Part shown: in pieces, positions 4,363 through 50,762 of the stretch
Numbering within the stretch: the stretch's first letter is position 1
Layout of the letters: each line of letters begins with the position of its first letter
IMG/VR virus record: IMGVR_UViG_3300044742_000232
Span: 26,475 to 90,474 of that record
DNA length: 64,000 bases
Direction: 5' to 3' (one strand)
DNA from: a virus
The notes under the pieces: model-generated
Seen by the model: the letters and a program-made list of their open reading frames with translations, nothing else
The model's database searches: none
Told to the model about the DNA's origin: nothing
Program-made: the position numbers and the translations under genes

Positions 4363-4766
4363 GCATCAAAGTAATCAAAGCGCCAGATTGTTAAAGGTTT
4401 ATGTGATCTTTCTGTCAGGTCTATTGTGTGCTTCGTTCCTTTTGAGTGACTATCCCAAAAAACAATCACCCGATCAGCATATTCCACCATCTCAGCATTC
4501 CTTTTGAAACCAGCAGACTTTCCATACTTCTTCCAATCTGGTAGAAACTGCTTGACAGGAACCTTGAAAAACTCTCCATATAACTCTCCCATCCGATCAA
4601 CACCAGCAGCGCCACCTGAAATAATCTCAGTAATCGGATATCTCTTATGATAATCCTTCACACACTCAAAAAACCAAGCTATCTCTTCATCGGTGAACTT
4701 TCTTGGAGGATAGGTTAGATTATCTCCAGCAGTCACACAACGCGAACCGGCTATAAGGACTTTCAT
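4359..4766 (-). CDS. SLOG-superfamily protein (YspA/DUF2493-like)
   Basis: 135 aa. MKVLIAGSR, IISGGAAGVDRMGE and FLPDWKKYGKSAGFKRNAEMVEYADRV (in that order) are the conserved nucleotide-binding elements of the DUF2493/YspA SLOG family. SLOG proteins bind or process NAD- or ADP-ribose-related nucleotides; this one may sense or degrade a host signal nucleotide, an inference only. It overlaps gene 46 by 4 bp. Confidence 0.8.
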   Translation of the reverse strand: MKVLIAGSRCVTAGDNLTYPPRKFTDEEIAWFFECVKDYHKRYPITEIISGGAAGVDRMGELYGEFFKVPVKQFLPDWKKYGKSAGFKRNAEMVEYADRVIVFWDSHSKGTKHTIDLTERSHKPLTIWRFDYFDA

Positions 4767-6475
4767 ACTGTTACCATTTGTGAGAAGTTATGAATTTTGC
4801 GAAACTCTAGAACCTTATCAAACTTATCAAGAAACTGATCTGATTTGTGACTGATAACTAGCGTGTTTGTGTCGGGAGAAAGTAGTTTTATGATCTTAAT
4901 CAAGTCATCCATACCATCATTATCCAAAGAGCTATCAAGAATCTCGTCAAAGATTAGGATATTGGTGCGAGCGGCGTTTCTCAACCGGCTAATCTCACGC
5001 CAAGTGAACATCAAAGCTAAATCAATGCGCTTCTTTTCTCCTTCCGAAAAGGACTCATAATTAAACTCATCCCGAAATCTGGATTTGATCTTCTCATTGA
5101 AATTTTCATCCAAAGTAAACTGACAAAAGAAGTTCATCAACTCTAACGACTTATTAATGAGAGAATTCATAATAGGGATATATTGAGAAACGATTCGTGA
5201 CTTTATACCACCATCCTTGAGTAATACCAATGCCGAGTTGTAAAGTTCTCGTATCTTGATTTCTTCTTCTTTTTTAGTAAGGAAGGTCTGTCTCTCTGTT
5301 TCAAGTATGCCAATATCTTCCCCCTTTGTCTCATTCTTCGCTTTGCGCTTTTCAATCTCTTTTTCAATTTCCTTTATTTGCTGTTTATAAAGCTTCAATG
5401 CAGTTGATTTCTTTGTCAACTCATAAGTCGTTTCCATAGCCGTCTTAGTCAGTTCCCGGATACGACTCTCAGCTGTATTTACCGCATCTCTATTCTTTTG
5501 TTCTACATCCTTGACAATCTTATCTAGCGCCTCAATCTCAACCGTCTTGCTGATAATCACATCCTGACGATAAGCTTCATTGATTTCTTGTTTACATGTG
5601 GGACAGGTTGTGTTTTCTTCATAAAAGGCAATAGTATCATATAGTTTCTGGAGCTTATCGTTGGCTTGTTCACTGAGAGCAAGAATTTCATTAGCCTTCA
5701 AGGACTCTTTACGAGTCTTAGAGATTTGGGTTTCGGTTTGATCCTGCCTTACTTTTAGAAGTTCAATTTCTATGTTTTCGGCCGCGACCTTAATTTCATA
5801 ATCCTTGATTCTATTCAGACATTCATCAATCAGCACTTGATTATTCTGTTGCAATTCAAGAATGTGCTTCTTTGTCAAGTCAATTTTGGAATCACAGATA
5901 GCAATAGCTTGTTCAATATCAAGTAAGGCTGTTTTGTTTTCAGATACCTTATCTTTCAGTAGTGTAAACATTATGGAGAAGACTTGAGTATCAAGTAGGT
6001 CTTCAATCACTTCACGTCTAGCTTGAGCAGCCAGCTTCATGAAAGGCTGATAGTTCGCGGACCCAAGAATAACAATCTGTGTAAACGTTTTGAAGTTCAT
6101 CTTAAGGATTTGTTTCTCAAGAATCGCTTGGTAATCTAGAGTTCCGGTTGTCTGATCTATAAGTTCTTCATTTCTGTATATCTCAAAGACATTAGGTTTC
6201 ATGCCCCGGCGCACGAAGTATTTCTTATCATTGATTTCAAACTCAACCTCCACCACCATATTCTTTTGAGTGATGGAGTTGATGAGCAGCGGTTTGTTGG
6301 TATTGCGAAACGATCTGTTATATAAAACAAAGCATAACGCATCAATGAGCGTTGTCTTACCACAACCGTTTGGACCAACGATAAGAGAGGTTTTGTTAGC
6401 TGATAAATCTATCTCAGAGAAAGCATTCCCATATGAGAGTAGATTTTTCCAGCGCAATAATTTAAAAACGATCAT
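4763..6475 (-). CDS. 46: gp46 recombination endonuclease, Rad50-like subunit
   Basis: 570 aa (T4 gp46 560). N-terminal FKLLRWKNLLSYG and the P-loop GPNGCGKTTL (about 34-43), a long coiled coil broken by a zinc hook TCPTCK (about 286-291), then the ABC signature FSEGEKKRIDLAL and Walker B ILIFDEILDSSLD. With gp47 it resects double-strand ends for recombination-dependent replication and host DNA breakdown. In T4 genes 46 and 47 are near neighbours; here about 1.3 kb with a tRNA and four small genes separate them. Confidence 0.97.
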   Translation of the reverse strand: MIVFKLLRWKNLLSYGNAFSEIDLSANKTSLIVGPNGCGKTTLIDALCFVLYNRSFRNTNKPLLINSITQKNMVVEVEFEINDKKYFVRRGMKPNVFEIYRNEELIDQTTGTLDYQAILEKQILKMNFKTFTQIVILGSANYQPFMKLAAQARREVIEDLLDTQVFSIMFTLLKDKVSENKTALLDIEQAIAICDSKIDLTKKHILELQQNNQVLIDECLNRIKDYEIKVAAENIEIELLKVRQDQTETQISKTRKESLKANEILALSEQANDKLQKLYDTIAFYEENTTCPTCKQEINEAYRQDVIISKTVEIEALDKIVKDVEQKNRDAVNTAESRIRELTKTAMETTYELTKKSTALKLYKQQIKEIEKEIEKRKAKNETKGEDIGILETERQTFLTKKEEEIKIRELYNSALVLLKDGGIKSRIVSQYIPIMNSLINKSLELMNFFCQFTLDENFNEKIKSRFRDEFNYESFSEGEKKRIDLALMFTWREISRLRNAARTNILIFDEILDSSLDNDGMDDLIKIIKLLSPDTNTLVISHKSDQFLDKFDKVLEFRKIHNFSQMVTV

Positions 6476-6545
6476 CTGAGTTGTTTATAGCTACAAAAAA
6501 GATAACAACGAAAATTGCAATGATGAACAAAGCTACTAATGTCAT
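6462..6545 (-). CDS. 27-aa single-pass membrane peptide
   Basis: MTLVALFIIAIFVV... then a short polar tail NNSDDRF. Almost the whole peptide is one hydrophobic helix. It overlaps the start of gene 46 by 14 bp and its own ATG overlaps the stop region of the upstream gene. Two other membrane peptides of exactly 27 aa occur at 29863 and 48945. Confidence 0.5.
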   Translation of the reverse strand: MTLVALFIIAIFVVIFFVAINNSDDRF

Positions 6546-6769
6546 TTTATAACATCACTCATGACTAATTGTTTCATTACTTCCACAACAATCTTTTCGG
6601 TTAGTAGCTCTGGATCATAATCTGTTTGGTTGATAAAAACTCCAGTTTCATAACCGACATAACGATCCTCTGCATGTGAGGAATCGCGATCATATCCTAC
6701 TTCATATGTCGTATCCCGAAGAGCATTTCTAATAATATCAGCAACGATATCCCAATTCACTTCTAACAT
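6542..6769 (-). CDS. Hypothetical protein, 75 aa
   Basis: Start chosen at MLEVNWD because AAAAGG lies six bases before this ATG; a TTG six codons upstream is a weaker choice. Begins VNWDIVADIIRNAL and is acidic overall. No recognised family. It lies just downstream of the tRNA-like gene. Confidence 0.55.
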   Translation of the reverse strand: MLEVNWDIVADIIRNALRDTTYEVGYDRDSSHAEDRYVGYETGVFINQTDYDPELLTEKIVVEVMKQLVMSDVIK

Positions 6770-6796
6770 AATATACCTTTTTATCAATAATATTAT

Positions 6797-6883: not shown

Positions 6884-7204
6884 TTAGTTTGCTTTGTCCC
6901 AAAACTCATCACATCGTTGCAGAGTCATTAGGAGTTGTTCGCGACCATTTGGATTTTCTGTATGGATAGACCATTTCACACGCGGATGAGCATTATGTTT
7001 AGCCAGATGCTCCAGATAGTTTGCCACGGCGATAGATTTGTCTTCGCCACCTAAGTCGTGATCAAAAGAAATCTCTTCTATCTGTGCTCCTATTGGATTC
7101 ACAATATGTCGGGAAAAGATCACGAAACAGTCATAACTTGTCTGCGCCCAAATCCAAGAGTCATCGGGCGGCTTGCGGTTGTCGTCAAACCAAATTTTAG
7201 GCAT
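6884..7204 (-). CDS. Cyclic-phosphate processing receiver (cPPR) domain protein
   Basis: 106 aa, essentially one receiver-like domain: FDDNRKPP (6-13), ISFDHDLGG (about 45-53) and a C-terminal WSIHTENPNG. This matches the family predicted to act on RNA cyclic-phosphate ends or in RNA repair. Together with the HAD protein at 3637 it may form part of a phage RNA-repair or anti-defence set. It overlaps the upstream gene by 8 bp. Confidence 0.75.
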   Translation of the reverse strand: MPKIWFDDNRKPPDDSWIWAQTSYDCFVIFSRHIVNPIGAQIEEISFDHDLGGEDKSIAVANYLEHLAKHNAHPRVKWSIHTENPNGREQLLMTLQRCDEFWDKAN

Positions 7205-7772
7205 CTTTCTTCTTCTCCATCGCTATTACACCATATCTCGTTTTGTAGCCAAGCATCGGTTGAAAACTATCAGGACTAATAGCAAACATATAATCAAGAG
7301 GAATATACGGACAAACCTTATAACCTTTACTTTCTATTTGATCCCATTCGTTTGCTAGTTCCGCACACACAGTATCAAACAATTGTTTTTTTGCAGCCTC
7401 AACTCCAATTGTTGCTTTCAAATCTTGGGCAAACTCTATAGGATTAGATTCTTTCAACGCCCTTGTCATTGCAAAGACAGTTTGATCTTGTATTTGAGCT
7501 TTTGGACCAGTCATAATAAAATCTGGATGAAAGAACCTCGGATAACGATTCATCATTGCAATCGTGCATTCAAACATGCTTGTATTTCTCAAGATATTGA
7601 AATCCATATTCTCTTTATATTGAGCTATCAGCGTATTGCTTATCATCGCCAACGATTTGAAGGCTTCCGCAAATGTGAGTTCTTCGGTGGCGCTGGCAAA
7701 GGCGGCTCCAGCGGGCATGGCAGCAGCACCAAGAGCCGCAGGCGTGAGAACTAAGAAGTTGCGGCGCTTCAT
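7197..7772 (-). CDS. Tat-signal protein derived from the gp23 capsid family
   Basis: 191 aa. The N-terminus KRRNFLVLTPAALGAAA followed by AGAAFASA looks like a twin-arginine signal peptide with a cleavage site near residue 28. The rest resembles this phage's own gp23 at two places: AQDLKA at 115-120 aligns with gp23 about 228-233, and CPYIPL...PDSFQP...GYKTRYG (154-181) aligns with gp23 CPYVPL...PDSFTP...GFKTRYG (396-423). Roughly 155 internal gp23 residues are missing. SD GGAGAGGAGAA precedes the ATG. This looks like a truncated capsid paralogue given an export signal; its function is unknown. Confidence 0.7.
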   Translation of the reverse strand: MKRRNFLVLTPAALGAAAMPAGAAFASATEELTFAEAFKSLAMISNTLIAQYKENMDFNILRNTSMFECTIAMMNRYPRFFHPDFIMTGPKAQIQDQTVFAMTRALKESNPIEFAQDLKATIGVEAAKKQLFDTVCAELANEWDQIESKGYKVCPYIPLDYMFAISPDSFQPMLGYKTRYGVIAMEKKKDA

Positions 7773-7787
7773 GGGGTTCTCCTCTCC

Positions 7788-8843
7788 TTACTCCATCATC
7801 ATCGCGCCATTATACAGGTCCGTCATCAGTTTATCAAGCCTGTTTTTATCAACTTGCACATTTGATTCTTCCACGAACTTTCTGATAATCGCCATCGTGT
7901 TTTCCGGCTGACCATCGAAAGTGTCAATCACCGCAGAGGACAAAACTTTATCCTCAAGGATTTTCACGTCTATCGCATACTTCTCCAGCGCATCAATAAA
8001 CATGTCAAAATGATAGGGATTAGTCTTAGCCATCACCAGCACTTTCACATAACAATCCTGGAACGTATCAAAGTCCCAATTCAACACTTGATCCAAAGAC
8101 TGCCCCTGATCGTCATAAACAATCTTGTGATATATTTCTTTTGGGTTGCGAATGAATTCCAATTGAAGAGTATCCGTGTCTAGAGTGTGGAATCCTTTGG
8201 GGGAATCGTAGTCTGCCCATGTGATCTGGTAAGGTGCTCCAAGATAAGTGATTGCACCGTTACTCTGTCTTTTATGAATGTGACCTGACGCCACAAGGCT
8301 AAATTTAGTAAAAAGAGAAATATCAAGGCCACGATCAATAACATATCCAGCATGTGATTCAAATCCTTTCAGTTCCAAGTGGCCAAAGCAAATTTTCGCG
8401 TCTGTTTTTTCAATAAGCTCTAAGGAACGTTTTTCATTATCTAAACAAATCCAAGGCAGAAACAAAATCTTCGCCCAAGTAAACTTCATCTCCGTTGGTT
8501 CTGTGATGATTGAGAACTTCAATCCCTCACGACTTTGCATCAACTCATTTATAGAGTTTACTTCCAGGGAGTTGGTATGATATGCGTCATGGTTGCCTAT
8601 AATGAAATAGACATAGTTATTGTGTAGCTTTTCTATAAAGTGTCTACGAACAAAATTTATTGTAGATATGTTTGCATACTTGCGACGATCAAACACATCC
8701 CCGAGAACAAATATATCCCGAATGCCATTTTTCTTGATATAGGGGAAAAATTGCGTCTCTAGGAATTTTTTAGTATGCTCTAGAAGAACTGGGTTGTCAT
8801 TCCTTGCCCCAAAATGTAGATCACTTATTATCGCTACGCGCAT
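7788..8843 (-). CDS. 47: gp47 recombination endonuclease, Mre11-like subunit
   Basis: 351 aa (T4 gp47 339). Metallophosphoesterase motifs are intact: SDLHFG (8-13), GDVFDRR, GNHDAY and GHIHKR. It is the nuclease partner of gp46 in end resection for recombination. The gene overlaps its upstream neighbour by 23 bp and is followed 16 bp later by the Tat-signal capsid-like gene. Confidence 0.97.
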   Translation of the reverse strand: MRVAIISDLHFGARNDNPVLLEHTKKFLETQFFPYIKKNGIRDIFVLGDVFDRRKYANISTINFVRRHFIEKLHNNYVYFIIGNHDAYHTNSLEVNSINELMQSREGLKFSIITEPTEMKFTWAKILFLPWICLDNEKRSLELIEKTDAKICFGHLELKGFESHAGYVIDRGLDISLFTKFSLVASGHIHKRQSNGAITYLGAPYQITWADYDSPKGFHTLDTDTLQLEFIRNPKEIYHKIVYDDQGQSLDQVLNWDFDTFQDCYVKVLVMAKTNPYHFDMFIDALEKYAIDVKILEDKVLSSAVIDTFDGQPENTMAIIRKFVEESNVQVDKNRLDKLMTDLYNGAMMME

Positions 8844-10308: not shown

Positions 10309-10670
10309 TATAATGTTCCTTTCACAAAATCCACCATACGATTGTAAATGATATCCTGATGATACCGATTTTTTACACATTCATCATCTATGTTACAACA
10401 TGAACACCATGCACCAATCATTCTAACTTTATCATTGAAAGTCCACAAATCACCTGTTTCATCAAACCCAAGAGCCTTTGCCAGCTTCTTCGTTGGCAAA
10501 GCTCTATAGCTGATTCCGCAGTCTTTTCTTGCTTGTTGCAGCACGCCTATAGCACAATACTGAATACCATGTTTACTCTTTCTTCTCAATTTACCTTTAC
10601 AACGATGCCTTGGATCAGCCCACAACTGGATTGCGCGGCTGAAGACCACATTCAAGATCGTGCTACTCAT
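10308..10670 (-). CDS. Hypothetical Cys-rich protein with CAIG motif
   Basis: 120 aa. QYCAIGVLQQARKDCG (about residues 37-52) recalls the CAxGW block of the next two genes, suggesting distant relationship. Further Cys residues (WCSCCNIDDEC) could bind metal. Overlaps both gene 55 and the downstream gene by a few bases, so it is in one translational unit with them. Confidence 0.6.
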   Translation of the reverse strand: MSSTILNVVFSRAIQLWADPRHRCKGKLRRKSKHGIQYCAIGVLQQARKDCGISYRALPTKKLAKALGFDETGDLWTFNDKVRMIGAWCSCCNIDDECVKNRYHQDIIYNRMVDFVKGTL

Positions 10671-11170
10671 CGCTTGGGCTTCCTTCTTCTACCGCAGAAC
10701 TTTTCTACACCTTTCGCCTTGACTCTAGCAGATTTCTTCTTCTTGTTCAACTGGTTTTTTTCATATTCTTCAATAAAAACTTGATTATTTTCATAAAGTT
10801 CTCGGTCTATCAAAGCTCCCCCAACATAGCTATCATTCAAGTCAAAGTAGTTTTCCATATTTTTGTAGCGAATGTATTGCTGTTTTTTCTCTTTGTCTAT
10901 CCTGCGGCGAAAGGAAAAGTAAGTGATCTGCGTGAAATATCCAAATGGGTTCTTTGACTTTTTTGGATCAAAATTGTTCAAGTAAGTAATGGAATTCTCA
11001 ATACCATCAGAAATCATCTCATCTTTCCAGTGTTGACTATAACCTTTGAACCAGGGATGATTAGCTAAGTTTCTTGCGATCAAAAGAAGACACTCGCCAA
11101 CATAGGGCGGAATCTCGGCTTTTTGGTTGAGTTTTTTCAGTCTCCTAACTTCTTTCTTATAGGAAACCAT
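10667..11170 (-). CDS. 55: gp55 sigma factor for late transcription
   Basis: 167 aa (T4 gp55 185). The segment NPFGYFTQITYFSFRRRIDKEKK is the hallmark gp55 region that recalls sigma region 2 and contacts the -10-like late promoter; SDGIENSITYLNNFD precedes it. It directs host RNA polymerase to late promoters, here probably the CTAAATA/TATAAATA sites. The start lies about 97 bp downstream of the leftward half of the palindromic promoter at 11268-11305. Confidence 0.93.
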   Translation of the reverse strand: MVSYKKEVRRLKKLNQKAEIPPYVGECLLLIARNLANHPWFKGYSQHWKDEMISDGIENSITYLNNFDPKKSKNPFGYFTQITYFSFRRRIDKEKKQQYIRYKNMENYFDLNDSYVGGALIDRELYENNQVFIEEYEKNQLNKKKKSARVKAKGVEKFCGRRRKPKR

Positions 11171-11799: not shown

Positions 11800-12246
11800 T
11801 TAGATTCCTGTTACTTGATTGATATCTATTCTTACAACTTCTCTAATTCTCATTGCAACTCCATTGGGTGTTTGATCATACATAGAATTTGGATAAAATA
11901 AATATCTTGAAGTATAATAATCAATATCAAAGAATTTCGCTACTGCATTGAAATCGGAAGAACATTTGTAAAATATACCAAGTCCAGGTCCACAATAAAA
12001 TCCTCTTTCCTGAAACCAAGGATCACTACCAGCCCAGCCGCAAGCACATGCAGCAGTTCCACATGGTACTTCTTTAGCCATAACATTTCCAACACCAGAA
12101 ATATACTTTGTAAAATTTGAAATACCAATAAAACTTTGAATCCAAGTAGACATATCAAATTTACAGATAGGAATTGGTCCAGCTTTTTCATATGGACCGT
12201 TACCTTGAAGTTTGTCGGCTAGTCTGATGAGAGCTTCTTTGTTCAT
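11800..12246 (-). CDS. CGTAAC/CAxGW-family protein, copy A
   Basis: 148 aa. Core block PCGTAACACGWAGSDPWFQERGF, an N-terminal MNKEALIRLADKLQGNGPY and the ending NQVTGI are shared with the gene immediately upstream, so the two are tandem paralogues. Phage proteins with CGTxACxAGW are common but uncharacterised; paired Cys could bind metal. Only 6 bp separate it from its paralogue. Confidence 0.7.
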   Translation of the reverse strand: MNKEALIRLADKLQGNGPYEKAGPIPICKFDMSTWIQSFIGISNFTKYISGVGNVMAKEVPCGTAACACGWAGSDPWFQERGFYCGPGLGIFYKCSSDFNAVAKFFDIDYYTSRYLFYPNSMYDQTPNGVAMRIREVVRIDINQVTGI

Positions 12247-12252
12247 GGCTTT

Positions 12253-12729
12253 TTAGAGTCCTGTTACTGAGTTGACTTCTTTGGCTTCTTCTTTTTCTCT
12301 TGCTTCAATGTTTTTTATAAATGTTCGTATCTCCTGTGCTTTTTCTATGGGGTCTTCAGAATAATCGCCTGAAAAAATTAAATTAGCATCGTCGTAACAA
12401 TCTAGCCCAAAGAAATGTTGACAAGCTAAAAAATCCTGTGTATTGGAGTCTTTGTGATAAACGCCATTGAAGGTTGTATAGAAACCTCTTTCCTGGAACC
12501 AAGGATCACTTCCAGCCCAGCCCGCAGCACAAGCAGCTGTTCCACAGGGTAGATTCTTTTCTACAACTTCCACGATTTTATCATTCATTCTTACATCTAT
12601 TGTTTTAGGGTCTTCAACAACCCATGATCCCATATCGAATCTTTCTGTGGGAACAGGACCAGCTTCTTTATATGGTCCTGTTCCCTCCAACTTGTCAGCC
12701 AGACGGAGTAATGCTATCCTGTTTGCCAT
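12253..12729 (-). CDS. CGTAAC/CAxGW-family protein, copy B
   Basis: 158 aa. Shares RLADKLEGTGPY, FDMGSW, PCGTAACAAGWAGSDPWFQ and the C-terminal VNSVTGL with its downstream paralogue. The section between the core and C-terminus has diverged strongly, which suggests different partners. SD GGAAGGGG precedes the ATG. Function unknown. Confidence 0.7.
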   Translation of the reverse strand: MANRIALLRLADKLEGTGPYKEAGPVPTERFDMGSWVVEDPKTIDVRMNDKIVEVVEKNLPCGTAACAAGWAGSDPWFQERGFYTTFNGVYHKDSNTQDFLACQHFFGLDCYDDANLIFSGDYSEDPIEKAQEIRTFIKNIEAREKEEAKEVNSVTGL

Positions 12730-17454: not shown

Positions 17455-17955
17455 ATGTCCAAGTTAGCTACTTTTGCTCTTGCACTTATTGTATCAACTC
17501 CAGTTTTTGCTCAAAATGTCATCACAATTGAGCGCAAAGAAACTTGGACAATCAAAGAATATGAGGAGGTGTCTAGAACTGCTGGCGTTGGCACCTTAGA
17601 GAAGTTGAAAACTCTCCCTCCAGGATTTCATCATTTCCTGCCGGTTGTGAATCCCGTCCAAATCTATAGTGATGGAATGATTGTTTGTCGGGAAATGAAA
17701 AATGCCATCTCCTTTGGCAAAAGATTATGGAATGGAGATGATCCAGAACAAGCTGTAAAAAAAATTGTGAAAGATAATGGGGGAGATGAAATTTGCTATA
17801 ACAGGCCGGGTCTAGTTCTTACTTCCGCAGAAATTGCTATTCGGGGAGATGATAAACCAGGGACGCCCAATAGAATATATATTACAAAATGGAAAGACCA
17901 ACATGGCAACTACCATTTTACTGGTAGCCCGTGTCATACCAAGAATTGTATGTAA
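17455..17955 (+). CDS. Exported protein with signal peptide, unknown function
   Basis: 166 aa. A Sec signal peptide is clear: MSKLATFALALIVSTPVFAQ with likely cleavage after VFA. The mature part has four Cys (VCREM, EICYN, SPCHTKNC) that could form disulphides in the periplasm. SD CCGGAGAA. The gene follows a strongly structured leader and is the first of the rightward cluster. No family recognised. Confidence 0.7.
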   Translation: MSKLATFALALIVSTPVFAQNVITIERKETWTIKEYEEVSRTAGVGTLEKLKTLPPGFHHFLPVVNPVQIYSDGMIVCREMKNAISFGKRLWNGDDPEQAVKKIVKDNGGDEICYNRPGLVLTSAEIAIRGDDKPGTPNRIYITKWKDQHGNYHFTGSPCHTKNCM

Positions 17956-30734: not shown

Positions 30735-30998
30735 CTACTGTCCGGTGCCTCCAACGCGCCGATCTTGGAAGTCCCAGAACAGTACCGGGTTGCCGGAACT
30801 GTAGGGATCACGGACGGTGCGGACCTTGCCAGCCTTGGTGCCAGCACGGTTGATCCACATGTCATAGAAGCCCGGCCCTGGCGCGCTGGAAGAGCCCATG
30901 GACTTCTTGTTGTCCTTGGCCGTCTGCGCCTGAACGCCGCTGGAAACTGCAACCAAAGAGGCTGTAGCAACCAGCACGGCCATCACACTGATCTTCAT
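30735..30998 (-). CDS. Small exported protein
   Basis: 87 aa. Sec signal peptide MKISVMAVLVATASLVAVSS with cleavage likely after VQA. The mature part is basic and Gly/Arg-rich (VRTVRDPYSSGNPVLFWDF). It is a monocistronic unit with its own promoter (31048-31076) and terminator. Function unknown; probably periplasmic. Confidence 0.7.
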   Translation of the reverse strand: MKISVMAVLVATASLVAVSSGVQAQTAKDNKKSMGSSSAPGPGFYDMWINRAGTKAGKVRTVRDPYSSGNPVLFWDFQDRRVGGTGQ

Positions 30999-31125: not shown

Positions 31126-31962
31126 ATGGATATTGTTTACAGATTCTTGAATCTCAGTAGTGGAAAGAGCTACATTGGGCGAACGAATATGGGGCTTGAG
31201 CCGCGTTTTCGTGCTCATGTTTATGCTTGGCAGCGTTGTAAAAAGAGACGCATGTGCAAGCTGTATTGGGCCTTTCGCAAGTATGGAACAGAGTGCTGGA
31301 AGCTTGAGGTGTTGGAGGAGTGCGCCAGTCTAGAGGAATCCAAGATCAGGGAAATAGAGTTGATTGCGGAATATGATGCTATCAAGAGCGGATATAACAT
31401 GCAAAAAGGTGGCGATAGTGGATTGGCGGGAATGAAGCTAAGGAAAGGGCATAAGAAGGCTATTTCATCTTCAAGGAAAATATGGTTTCAGACTGAGGAT
31501 GGAGATAGATGGAAAGAGGAGTTACGAAAAAAAACTAAAGGAAATAAGTATGGCGCTTTGCGAAAAAATACAAATCTATCTGAGGAAACCAAAAGAAAAA
31601 TTAGTGAAGGTAATCGCGGTAAGGAAAGAACAGATATACAACGTGAAGTATTTTCTGATGAAATGAAACGTAGATGGGATTCTGGTGTTTACGACAATAG
31701 ACCAGCAATGTCTGAAGAAACAAAAAGAAAAATAGCAATATGGAATGTTGGTAAGAAAAATACTGAAAGACAGAAACGGGTTGCAACAGAAGTTAATCAA
31801 AAGAAATGGGAAATAACTTTTCCTGATGGGCATACTGAAGTTGTTATAAATCTAAGAAAATGGTGTCTAGAGAATGGATTAGATCAAGGTAATTTATCGC
31901 GCACACATTCTGGTAATGGAAAATCAAAACATAAGGGGTATTGGGCAAGAAAATTGGAATAA
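31126..31962 (+). CDS. GIY-YIG homing endonuclease with NUMOD3 and C-terminal HTH
   Basis: 278 aa. DIVYRFLNLSSGKSYIGRTNM is the GIY-YIG start, with the catalytic Arg in the following RFRAHVYAWQR helix and Glu in LEESKIREIELI. Then come NUMOD3 repeats (SEETKRKISEGNRGK and SEETKRKIAIWNVGK) and a C-terminal WEITFPDGHTEVVINL...KHKGYWA module of the type found in T4 Seg enzymes. Inserted between small exported genes and gene 23, opposite in orientation to gene 23. Confidence 0.93.
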   Translation: MDIVYRFLNLSSGKSYIGRTNMGLEPRFRAHVYAWQRCKKRRMCKLYWAFRKYGTECWKLEVLEECASLEESKIREIELIAEYDAIKSGYNMQKGGDSGLAGMKLRKGHKKAISSSRKIWFQTEDGDRWKEELRKKTKGNKYGALRKNTNLSEETKRKISEGNRGKERTDIQREVFSDEMKRRWDSGVYDNRPAMSEETKRKIAIWNVGKKNTERQKRVATEVNQKKWEITFPDGHTEVVINLRKWCLENGLDQGNLSRTHSGNGKSKHKGYWARKLE

Positions 31963-32015: not shown

Positions 32016-33389
32016 TCACATAAGATGTTGAACGAGGAACTTTCTGTAATAAACGTTTGAATCTACTACGATTGTGCCACCACCAGCAGTTAGACCTTGA
32101 GCGAATGGGTTAGCAGTCATACCATAACGTGTCTTGAATCCGACCCGAGGTGTGAATGAATCTGGACGAACCGCATTCATTAGCTGTAGAGGAACGTAGG
32201 GGCAATAGAAGATACCAGCATCAAAAGCTGACTGTCCTTTATAGCCGACGTTGATATACTGGCCACCTGAAGAGTATGGATCAATGAAACACTTAATCTT
32301 TCCGTTCAGGACACCAATAAAGGTAGAACCTGTATCGTCTGGATTTAGGTTATTTTGTAGAGCAGGCGTATAATCAAGAACCTGTGCAGCTTGTAGAGCG
32401 GAAGCTACGTCCGAAGTCATAATGGCAATATTGCCTTTCCCTCTACGGGTAGACTTCGCTAGAGCGTTACATTCACGATCTAGTTGATACATTAGACCTT
32501 TCCATTTCTCAACGGACCAACGGCCATTTGAGTCGGTATCAAGATCAAAGAAACCAGCAGTTGTAGTGTCTTCCTGACAACCAACTGTAGCAGCTAGGTT
32601 GACGGTGCGAACAACTTCACGATTGATTTCCGCAAGGATTTCAGTTGAAAGAATGTTGATAAGTTCAGCGCGAGCATCCATACCATGAACTGCTTTCAAG
32701 TCTTGTGCGAGTTCTAGCGTGTATTCCGCAGCTAGCGCACGAGTTTTGGCAGTAACAGTATTTTTCTCAATGCTGAAAGCCATCTGAGCAAAATCAGAGT
32801 TAGAATCAGTTCCCAACGCTTCACCTTGCGCTGTTGACATTGCACCACCGTAGTTGTAGATGCCGGTCGCAGCGAGGTTTGAAACAGCAGTTGAGTTACC
32901 AGGGAGTGATCCAACATGCTTCAAGCCAAGGGTGTTAGCGCCAGAAAGGATTGAGCTAAACATCGTGTTGACTTCGTTATAAAAAGTCTCTGAACCAGTC
33001 TGGTTAGTATACCGAGAACGCATCGCAAAGATAAGACCAGTTGGACCTGTCATAGGCTGAACGCCAACAATGTCATAGGCAACTAGATTAGGAGCGGCAC
33101 GTCTAACCATTGAGATTAGAATTGGGTCAAAGGTGTCAATTGCACCTGTTGAAGGATCGGAGCTAGAACCAGCCATCATGTTTACAGGAATGGCGGCTTC
33201 GTCCAATCTCATGTTCTGTGGAATGTGAACACGATCCTCACTAAGAGCCTGTTGAGTATTTTCCAACATAATCGCGGTACACATTGCGCGATGGTTGTCC
33301 CGAATCTTGGGCATCTCCTTATGATTAAGGATACCATCCCATTTTTGCTTCAGTAGTTCCATTTCATTTAACATTCTCTTCTGAGACAT
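32016..33389 (-). CDS. 23: gp23 major capsid protein precursor
   Basis: 457 aa (T4 gp23 521). Conserved stretches: FDPILISMVRRAAPNLVAYDIVGVQPM, LELAQDLKAVHGMDARAEL, EINREVV and the C-terminal FYCPYVPLQ...GFKTRYGM. The N-terminal about 60 residues are the presumed propeptide removed by gp21. Own late motif upstream and terminator downstream suggest high-level late expression. A truncated paralogue with an export signal is encoded at 7197. Confidence 0.97.
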   Translation of the reverse strand: MSQKRMLNEMELLKQKWDGILNHKEMPKIRDNHRAMCTAIMLENTQQALSEDRVHIPQNMRLDEAAIPVNMMAGSSSDPSTGAIDTFDPILISMVRRAAPNLVAYDIVGVQPMTGPTGLIFAMRSRYTNQTGSETFYNEVNTMFSSILSGANTLGLKHVGSLPGNSTAVSNLAATGIYNYGGAMSTAQGEALGTDSNSDFAQMAFSIEKNTVTAKTRALAAEYTLELAQDLKAVHGMDARAELINILSTEILAEINREVVRTVNLAATVGCQEDTTTAGFFDLDTDSNGRWSVEKWKGLMYQLDRECNALAKSTRRGKGNIAIMTSDVASALQAAQVLDYTPALQNNLNPDDTGSTFIGVLNGKIKCFIDPYSSGGQYINVGYKGQSAFDAGIFYCPYVPLQLMNAVRPDSFTPRVGFKTRYGMTANPFAQGLTAGGGTIVVDSNVYYRKFLVQHLM

Positions 33390-44591: not shown

Positions 44592-44933
44592 TCAGTTCAC
44601 CAGATAGGGACAAGCCTTGCGCGCACCATCCGCACCGACGACCATCCCAGTATTCGGGTTGAACGACTTGAACTTGGCAGCGCATTTGCCCATGTTGCCA
44701 TTCGCGCGATAACCATACTCTTTATCGCCACGATACTTCATGGGGATATAGCCATCGCCTTGCCGAGCATGGGCCATCTTGGCACCCACAACGATGCCGC
44801 CGACGACGCCAAGAGCAACAAGACCGACCACGACGGGCACTGCTACAGGATGAGCTTTTGCAGACTGCATCGGCGTGACCGCTGCCAAAGCGGCAACAGA
44901 AAAGGCTGCGATTGCGAGTTTGAGAGACTTCAT
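44592..44933 (-). CDS. Exported protein with BA14K-like C-terminus, copy 2
   Basis: 113 aa. Sec signal peptide MKSLKLAIAAFSVAALAAVT with cleavage after SAKA. A glycine-rich membrane-like segment (VVVGLVALGVVGGIVVGAK) follows. The end CAAKFKSFNPNTGMVVGADG...CPYLVN parallels the downstream gene. Higher G+C than the surrounding virion genes, suggestive of host origin. Role unknown, possibly envelope modification. Confidence 0.75.
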   Translation of the reverse strand: MKSLKLAIAAFSVAALAAVTPMQSAKAHPVAVPVVVGLVALGVVGGIVVGAKMAHARQGDGYIPMKYRGDKEYGYRANGNMGKCAAKFKSFNPNTGMVVGADGARKACPYLVN

Positions 44934-49769: not shown

Positions 49770-50762
49770 TTATAACCACCATTTTCCCTTTTTGGAATTT
49801 TCTGCACTTCTTGGAGGAATACCAAGTCTTTTACCATGTTTAGAAACAGCTCTTTCCACTACCCTTTTTTCACGGACAGGATTTAGTCTTTTTCCAATTT
49901 CTTCATGCGACAATTTAGGATCGCTGGCAACTTTGGCCAACTCTGCATAATGTTCTTCACTCCAACGGCTTTTAGGATTCGCTGGAGGATGATATTCAGG
50001 ATGATCTTTGTTTCTTTTAGCTTGTTGAAATATGTTAGCTTGACTCGTGTCAAAATGCTTACCAATTTCAACATCAGACATTCCACCTCTCCTCATTCTG
50101 AAAATTGTTGATAGACGATGAGATGCCTGTGTAGGAGTATGTAATTGTTTTGGATCAATACCAATTCTTGGACCATACTTTTTTATGGCCTGAGGGAGAG
50201 TATAAGGATCAAGATGATCCATACCCATATCTTTTGCAATTAGTTCTTTGTTTCCTTTGTGCTTTGTGAATACGTTTTTTAGTTTTCTTAGCTTATTGTT
50301 TGGCCAACTCCAACGTTTTTCTTCTGGATTTTTAGCTTGCCACACAGTAAATTTTCTATTTCTTTTAGGAGCATTAGCACCATATTTCATACCTGGATGA
50401 TTTGTAGCATCCTTGATTTGACGACCTGTTAGTCCCATTCTTTTACCTATTTCCGCATGACTAACATTTGGATCAGATAAGTGATGATTTAATTCTCTAA
50501 CTCTATCTGGAGTCCAGATTTCTTTATGGCTACGTGGGGGAATACCTAATTTTTCACCATGATTTCTAAGAAGTCTGCGCACAACCCATTCCGAAGTATT
50601 CATTTTACCGGCAATTTCTTTTACACTTTTTTGCGGATCAGCCGCGTGCTTAGCTAATACACTTAATCTATCCTTAGTTCTACCAAAGATACCATGTTGT
50701 CCACGTTTATATTGTGGGGTTTCTTCTTCTTGTTCAAAGATAAATCTTTTGAAGCGCATCAT
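49770..50762 (-). CDS. Multi-helix-turn-helix protein with prohead-targeting-like leader
   Basis: 330 aa. About five repeated helix-turn-helix units: SVKEIAGKMNTSEWVVRRLL, SHAEIGKRMGLTGRQIKDA, KELIAKDMGMDHLDPYTLPQA, SDVEIGKHFDTSQANIFQQA and SHEEIGKRLNPVREKRVVERA; the first and last end in the same GIPPRS. The N-terminus MMRFKRFIFEQEEE resembles capsid-targeting leaders of internal head proteins. It is inserted exactly between genes 13 and 14. Likely a packaged, injected DNA-binding protein; inferred. Confidence 0.65.
   Translation of the reverse strand: MMRFKRFIFEQEEETPQYKRGQHGIFGRTKDRLSVLAKHAADPQKSVKEIAGKMNTSEWVVRRLLRNHGEKLGIPPRSHKEIWTPDRVRELNHHLSDPNVSHAEIGKRMGLTGRQIKDATNHPGMKYGANAPKRNRKFTVWQAKNPEEKRWSWPNNKLRKLKNVFTKHKGNKELIAKDMGMDHLDPYTLPQAIKKYGPRIGIDPKQLHTPTQASHRLSTIFRMRRGGMSDVEIGKHFDTSQANIFQQAKRNKDHPEYHPPANPKSRWSEEHYAELAKVASDPKLSHEEIGKRLNPVREKRVVERAVSKHGKRLGIPPRSAENSKKGKWWL

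Follow-up and report, generated by a model that had tools for sequence, protein, structure and literature searches.

A hybrid phage gene with two blocks of gp23 ancestry and a possible twin-arginine leader between genes 47 and 46

Related capsid proteins and exported proteins

The major head protein gp23 of T4-like phages (PF07068, phrog_138) and the T4 vertex protein gp24, which is also a gp23 paralogue, are the described capsid proteins to which the product of the ORF at 7197-7772 can be compared. This ORF was identified on one assembled metagenomic contig from an uncultured T4-like phage, in a stretch of 64,000 nucleotides (the window) that is part of a virus record of 90,474 bases (Table 1). 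It has in common with gp23 the spine helix, the motif CPY.PL...F.P..G.KTRYG and two conserved blocks that occur in matching order. However, it differs in being 191 rather than 457 amino acids in length, in missing three regions and in having diverged well beyond every gp23 used for comparison, while also lying at another locus and possessing a leader-like N-terminus. The difference to gp24 is that the latter is a full-length HK97-fold subunit, whereas the present protein is nearer to gp23 and is missing most of the fold.

The leader can be compared to those of the Escherichia coli proteins CueO, SufI and TorA, with which it has in common an RRxFL-type motif, a moderately hydrophobic stretch and an A-x-A sequence before the possible cleavage site, although these score 18-25 bits with the twin-arginine (Tat) model TIGR01409 against 10-14 bits here, and the leader in this case is joined to a phage-derived body. 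The Sp-type exclusion proteins of T4 are small accessory phage proteins that act in the periplasm following export, and no sequence relation between these and the ORF product was seen. The T4 antiholin RI is a periplasmic protein with a cleavable signal peptide and serves as a small exported lysis regulator (PMC8385771); its leader differs in being of the Sec type, and it likewise showed no sequence relation to the ORF product, the role of which is a predicted one. A periplasmic role can be considered reasonable given that T4 possesses small exported lysis regulators such as RI. No description of a Tat-exported capsid fragment of a phage was found among the open-licence papers searched.

Table 1. 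Features of the hybrid ORF and of associated genes in the window.
Feature	Position	Strand	Remarks
Gene 46, SbcC-like	4763..6475	-	Walker A GPNGCGKTT, ABC signature SEGEKKR, gene order, relatives
Small ORF	6542-6787		Also between genes 47 and 46
cREC_REC domain protein	6884..7204	-	Downstream neighbour; directly after gene 47 in relatives
gp23-derived hybrid with Tat-like leader	7197..7772	-	191-aa ORF
C-terminal tail MEKKKDA and stop	7197..7220	-	Overlaps ribosome-binding site and start codon of next gene
gp23 block 2, residues 154-184	7221..7313	-	CPYIPL...PDSFQP...KTRYG; corresponds to gp23 396-426
gp23 block 1, residues 94-145	7338..7493	-	Strand and spine helix; corresponds to gp23 207-257
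Residues 29-93	7494..7688	-	No significant relative
Tat-like leader MKRRNFLVLTPAALGAAAMPAGAAFA	7695..7772	-	Possible cleavage AFA/SA; sub-threshold for TIGR01409
Shine-Dalgarno GGAGAGGAG	7779..7787	-	Abuts stop codon of gene 47; from sequence
Gene 47, SbcD-like	7788..8843	-	Upstream neighbour of the hybrid ORF
Full-length gp23, major capsid protein of this phage	32016..33389	-	457 aa

Genomic context and distribution

The hybrid ORF begins with an ATG codon that has a strong Shine-Dalgarno sequence six bases upstream, and it overlaps the ORF of the next gene by eight bases. The sequence-only reading had correctly placed it between genes 46 and 47, an interval which also holds the cREC_REC gene and the small ORF at 6542-6787. 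The cREC_REC (cyclic-phosphate processing receiver) gene is retained between genes 47 and 46 in relatives L008 and L009. A promoter-like site at 7837-7809 was dismissed, being located inside the coding sequence of gene 47, present in a relative too and no commoner than in shuffled sequences.

Comparison to the two closest relatives (87% identity for gp47, 89% for gp46) revealed that both are without the hybrid ORF, with the next gene starting 12 bases past the stop codon of gene 47. The ORF was also absent from more distant relatives as far as their records extend; insertion in this lineage is the simplest reading. Its flanks were found to be colinear with those of relatives on both sides, and with one record mis-assembly is possible. 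Searches by pattern and by protein in IMG/VR, INPHARED and GTDB located no homologue of the fusion, in keeping with the earlier view that a union of capsid fragment and leader is unusual; the lone GTDB match to the fusion pattern was inside an unrelated ABC transporter gene. Comparison to the anti-phage defence families of PADLOC-DB gave none at E<=1.

Elsewhere in the window, tandem paralogous proteins of approximately 150 amino acids with the motif EALxRLADKLxGxGPYxxxGPIP are encoded at 11800-12246 and 12253-12729 (both on the minus strand); these had no Pfam match, and the family is expanded in relatives also (L009 132-2032). Weak likeness to the sigma-70 family was seen for ORFs 10667-11170 and 49770-50762 (minus strand), with NCBIfam sigma70-ECF scores of 15.9 and 21.4 bits, both under the cut-off.

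Capsid blocks and their divergence

The hybrid ORF is a real and unusual gene with gp23 ancestry in two blocks. Using BLASTP, residues 154-184 were found to be 61% identical to this phage's own gp23 (E=3e-12) and residues 94-145 to be 38% identical (7e-7). Furthermore, the ORF product gave significant matches to the Pfam Gp23 family (1.5e-13, 51.4 bits against a cut-off of 24.4), the PHROG for the major head protein (9.4e-12) and T4-type gp23 in the PDB (phmmer, 6e-7), while with a profile built from 80 gp23s block 1 scored 82 and block 2 scored 127, shuffled sequences reaching a maximum of 53 in each case. The two blocks, proposed from the sequence to match gp23 in the same order, are therefore real. 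The number of residues missing between them had been put at approximately 155, but is in fact 138 (gp23 258-395), with eight residues in their place. Also absent are approximately 206 residues from the N-terminus of gp23 and approximately 31 from its C-terminus. Single-piece phage matches that seemed to span this deletion turned out to be full-length gp23 genes that were aligned differently.

Of a full-length HK97-type chain (N-arm, E-loop, spine helix, A and P domains), just gp23 207-257 and 396-426 were matched, and the ORF is located between genes 47 and 46 instead of in the head gene cluster with the real gp23. An identity as a degenerate vertex protein, which had been suggested, is not borne out: the best matches in Pfam, PHROG and the PDB were to gp23, gp24 of an Aeromonas phage was matched weakly at 30 bits, and the protein is neither nearer to gp24 than to gp23 nor full-length. 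These features instead support a diverged, partial gp23 paralogue in an accessory position.

Structure prediction by AlphaFold with a gp23 alignment gave a mean pLDDT of 44.9 and a pTM of 0.30, in which the sole confident stretch was a helix at residues 111-147 (the gp23 spine helix; pLDDT 70-77), and all confidence values were lower when no alignment was supplied. The modelling proposed as a check on capsid structure thus gave half an answer, recovering the spine helix but leaving the remainder at low confidence. As this helix alone was modelled with any confidence and most of the capsid chain is gone, the notion of a retained capsid fold is unsupported.

In sequence, both blocks fall beyond the variation seen among gp23s. 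The 80 gp23s share 73% or more identity with one another, whereas that of block 1 to any of them did not exceed 43%; block 2 reached no more than 61% identity to gp23s, for which the median is 90%. Of the positions that are near-invariant in gp23, block 1 retains 18 of 37 and block 2 retains 14 of 23. Among the 39 residues identical to this phage's gp23, 13 have identical codons (15.7 being expected by chance), indicating that synonymous sites are saturated, and the identities at the three codon positions are 0.51, 0.72 and 0.33. When neutral decay was simulated to a matching extra amount, a frame free of stop codons was left in approximately 1.5% of simulations. Given this divergence beyond the gp23 range, the saturated synonymous sites and the intact frame, the ORF has probably been maintained as a protein from which the constraint of the capsid has gone. 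FastTree grouped it with the gp23 of its own phage (support of 0.80), whereas IQ-TREE with a smaller set placed it elsewhere (bootstrap of 36), the branch being long; the trees thus disagree regarding descent from this phage's own gp23.

The N-terminal leader

The N-terminus of the protein (MKRRNFLVLTPAALGAAAMPAGAAFA, MKRRNFLVL...AFA) possesses the layout of a twin-arginine leader, with the motif, an uncharged hydrophobic stretch and an A-x-A site. Among 1,772 possible starts of ORFs of 50 amino acids or more in the 90-kb record, that of the hybrid ORF was the sole one in which RRx[FLIVM][LIVMF] precedes a run of 14 uncharged residues. Within NCBIfam, the N-terminus matched the Tat signal model best, although the TIGR01409 score of 10.1-14.3 bits is below the curated cut-off of 16.7; the leaders of E. 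coli TorA, CueO and SufI, typed from general knowledge as yardsticks, scored 18.2-24.8 bits, and six other proteins of the window gave no score. The Tat-type signal first noticed by inspection therefore holds with respect to its motif, its A-x-A site and its uniqueness in the record but falls short on the model score, and the identification of the N-terminus as a Tat leader is suggestive.

The leader also stands apart in its DNA, with a GC content of 0.63 compared to 0.38 in the remainder of the ORF; for the first 32 codons the value is 0.625, which was reached by 0.5% of windows in other genes. Alanine codons or a foreign source could account for this. For residues 1-93 no relative was found among phages, with one match at E=9 among plasmids. 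Residues 44-108 were considered as a C-terminal piece of gp46, but the match was weak (uncorrected p of 0.006-0.02, post hoc) and not significant given the number of comparisons.

It had also been proposed that the N-terminus mimics a signal through capsid descent. The apparent leader would in that case be a degenerate form of the conserved N-terminal part of gp23 (MVRRAAPNLVAYDI..), and the ORF a colinear, shortened capsid protein without an export signal. Global alignment with MAFFT does set MKRR-NF against the VRR-NL residues that are invariant in gp23 (gp23 MVRRAAPNL), and the residue at the place of the Met is Met in the gp23 of this phage but Leu in relatives. However, local shuffles of residues 1-34 and 1-93 against gp23 gave p values of approximately 0.2 or more, and global shuffles ranged from 0.03 to 0.94 depending on the segment and gap cost, so that the MAFFT placement is without support in either; the GC-rich leader DNA on an ORF that is otherwise not GC-rich also argues against it. 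This reading is regarded as highly improbable.

Sec-like leaders were identified on at least three other ORFs of the window, at 30735-30998 and 44592-44933 on the minus strand and at 17455-17955 on the plus strand, making the export of phage proteins plausible in this phage. The former two have a GC content of 0.57-0.61 beyond the leader and are thus GC-rich throughout, compared to approximately 0.41 for the phage.

Origin and possible role of the hybrid gene

The best explanation, which we rate at close to an even chance if a little below it, is that of an accessory gene specific to this lineage and built out of capsid fragments, with a new Tat-like N-terminus and a constraint of its own, the product of which is probably exported and acts outside the capsid. 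A fragment of a gp23 gene would have had its strand and spine helix joined to the last conserved strands by an internal deletion and would have gained a new N-terminus bearing a Tat-like leader, this hybrid then evolving under its own constraint between genes 47 and 46. A homing endonuclease gene is situated at 31126-31962 on the plus strand (phrog_314, 5e-27, with matches to GIY-YIG and HNH PHROGs also), approximately 50 bases past the 3' end of gp23, and a second GIY-YIG-like ORF was noted by eye at 777-1325 on the minus strand; elements of this kind could have aided the movement of gp23 pieces. From the sequence features we infer export, processing and the place and kind of action of the protein: it would be translated with the 47-46 operon and be carried over the inner membrane by its leader, after which the mature, partly helical protein of approximately 165 amino acids would work in the periplasm and not in the capsid, its task being, for instance, the timing of lysis or the exclusion of superinfecting phages. 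The more specific proposal, in which the spine helix of gp23 and its terminal strands form a periplasmic effector, exported by the Tat system of the host and acting on lysis timing or against competing phages, is a doubtful one.

Alternatively, the ORF may be transitional or non-functional, consisting of debris from gp23 recombination that happened to join an open frame resembling a signal, and having little or no function. Its orphan status in the three databases, its absence from the nearest relatives, its low-confidence fold and the 93 N-terminal residues without relatives are all consistent with this, but a frame of 191 codons that stays intact after large divergence (rare in the neutral simulations), a strong Shine-Dalgarno sequence and the close packing of the ORF between gene 47 and the start codon that follows are not. 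The conservation of gp23 residues despite saturated synonymous sites also speaks against debris, though part of it may predate fragmentation, and overall we hold this to be unlikely while deserving serious consideration. A further possibility is a capsid-derived modulator that stays in the cytoplasm with its leader unused, where the spine helix and terminal strands would attach to subunits of the capsid or scaffold, or to a capsid-sensing host factor, in a dominant-negative or decoy manner. The pieces kept belong to the best-conserved stretches of gp23, many near-invariant residues persist and the Tat score is sub-threshold, as would suit such a protein; it is nevertheless rather improbable, as the N-terminus is the sole Tat-like one in the genome, half of the near-invariant positions of block 1 have changed (a poor fit to a preserved capsid interface) and the gp23 region near residues 94-130, which we take to be the likely equivalent of Gol, was not detectably present in shuffle tests.

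The reading as an exported accessory protein is thus favoured by the colinear gp23 blocks, the absence of the gene from the nearest relatives, the saturated synonymous sites, the intact frame and the unique Tat-like start, and is weakened by the Tat score below the cut-off, the lack of a fusion homologue, a model confident for one helix and the origin of the record in a single metagenomic contig. With no fusion homologue in the databases searched, selection on the whole fusion is without direct support. Should the protein be produced and exported, it would represent a new non-structural phage gene derived from the phage's own kind of capsid gene and sent via the twin-arginine route, and would illustrate one way in which lineage-specific accessory genes arise in phage operons.
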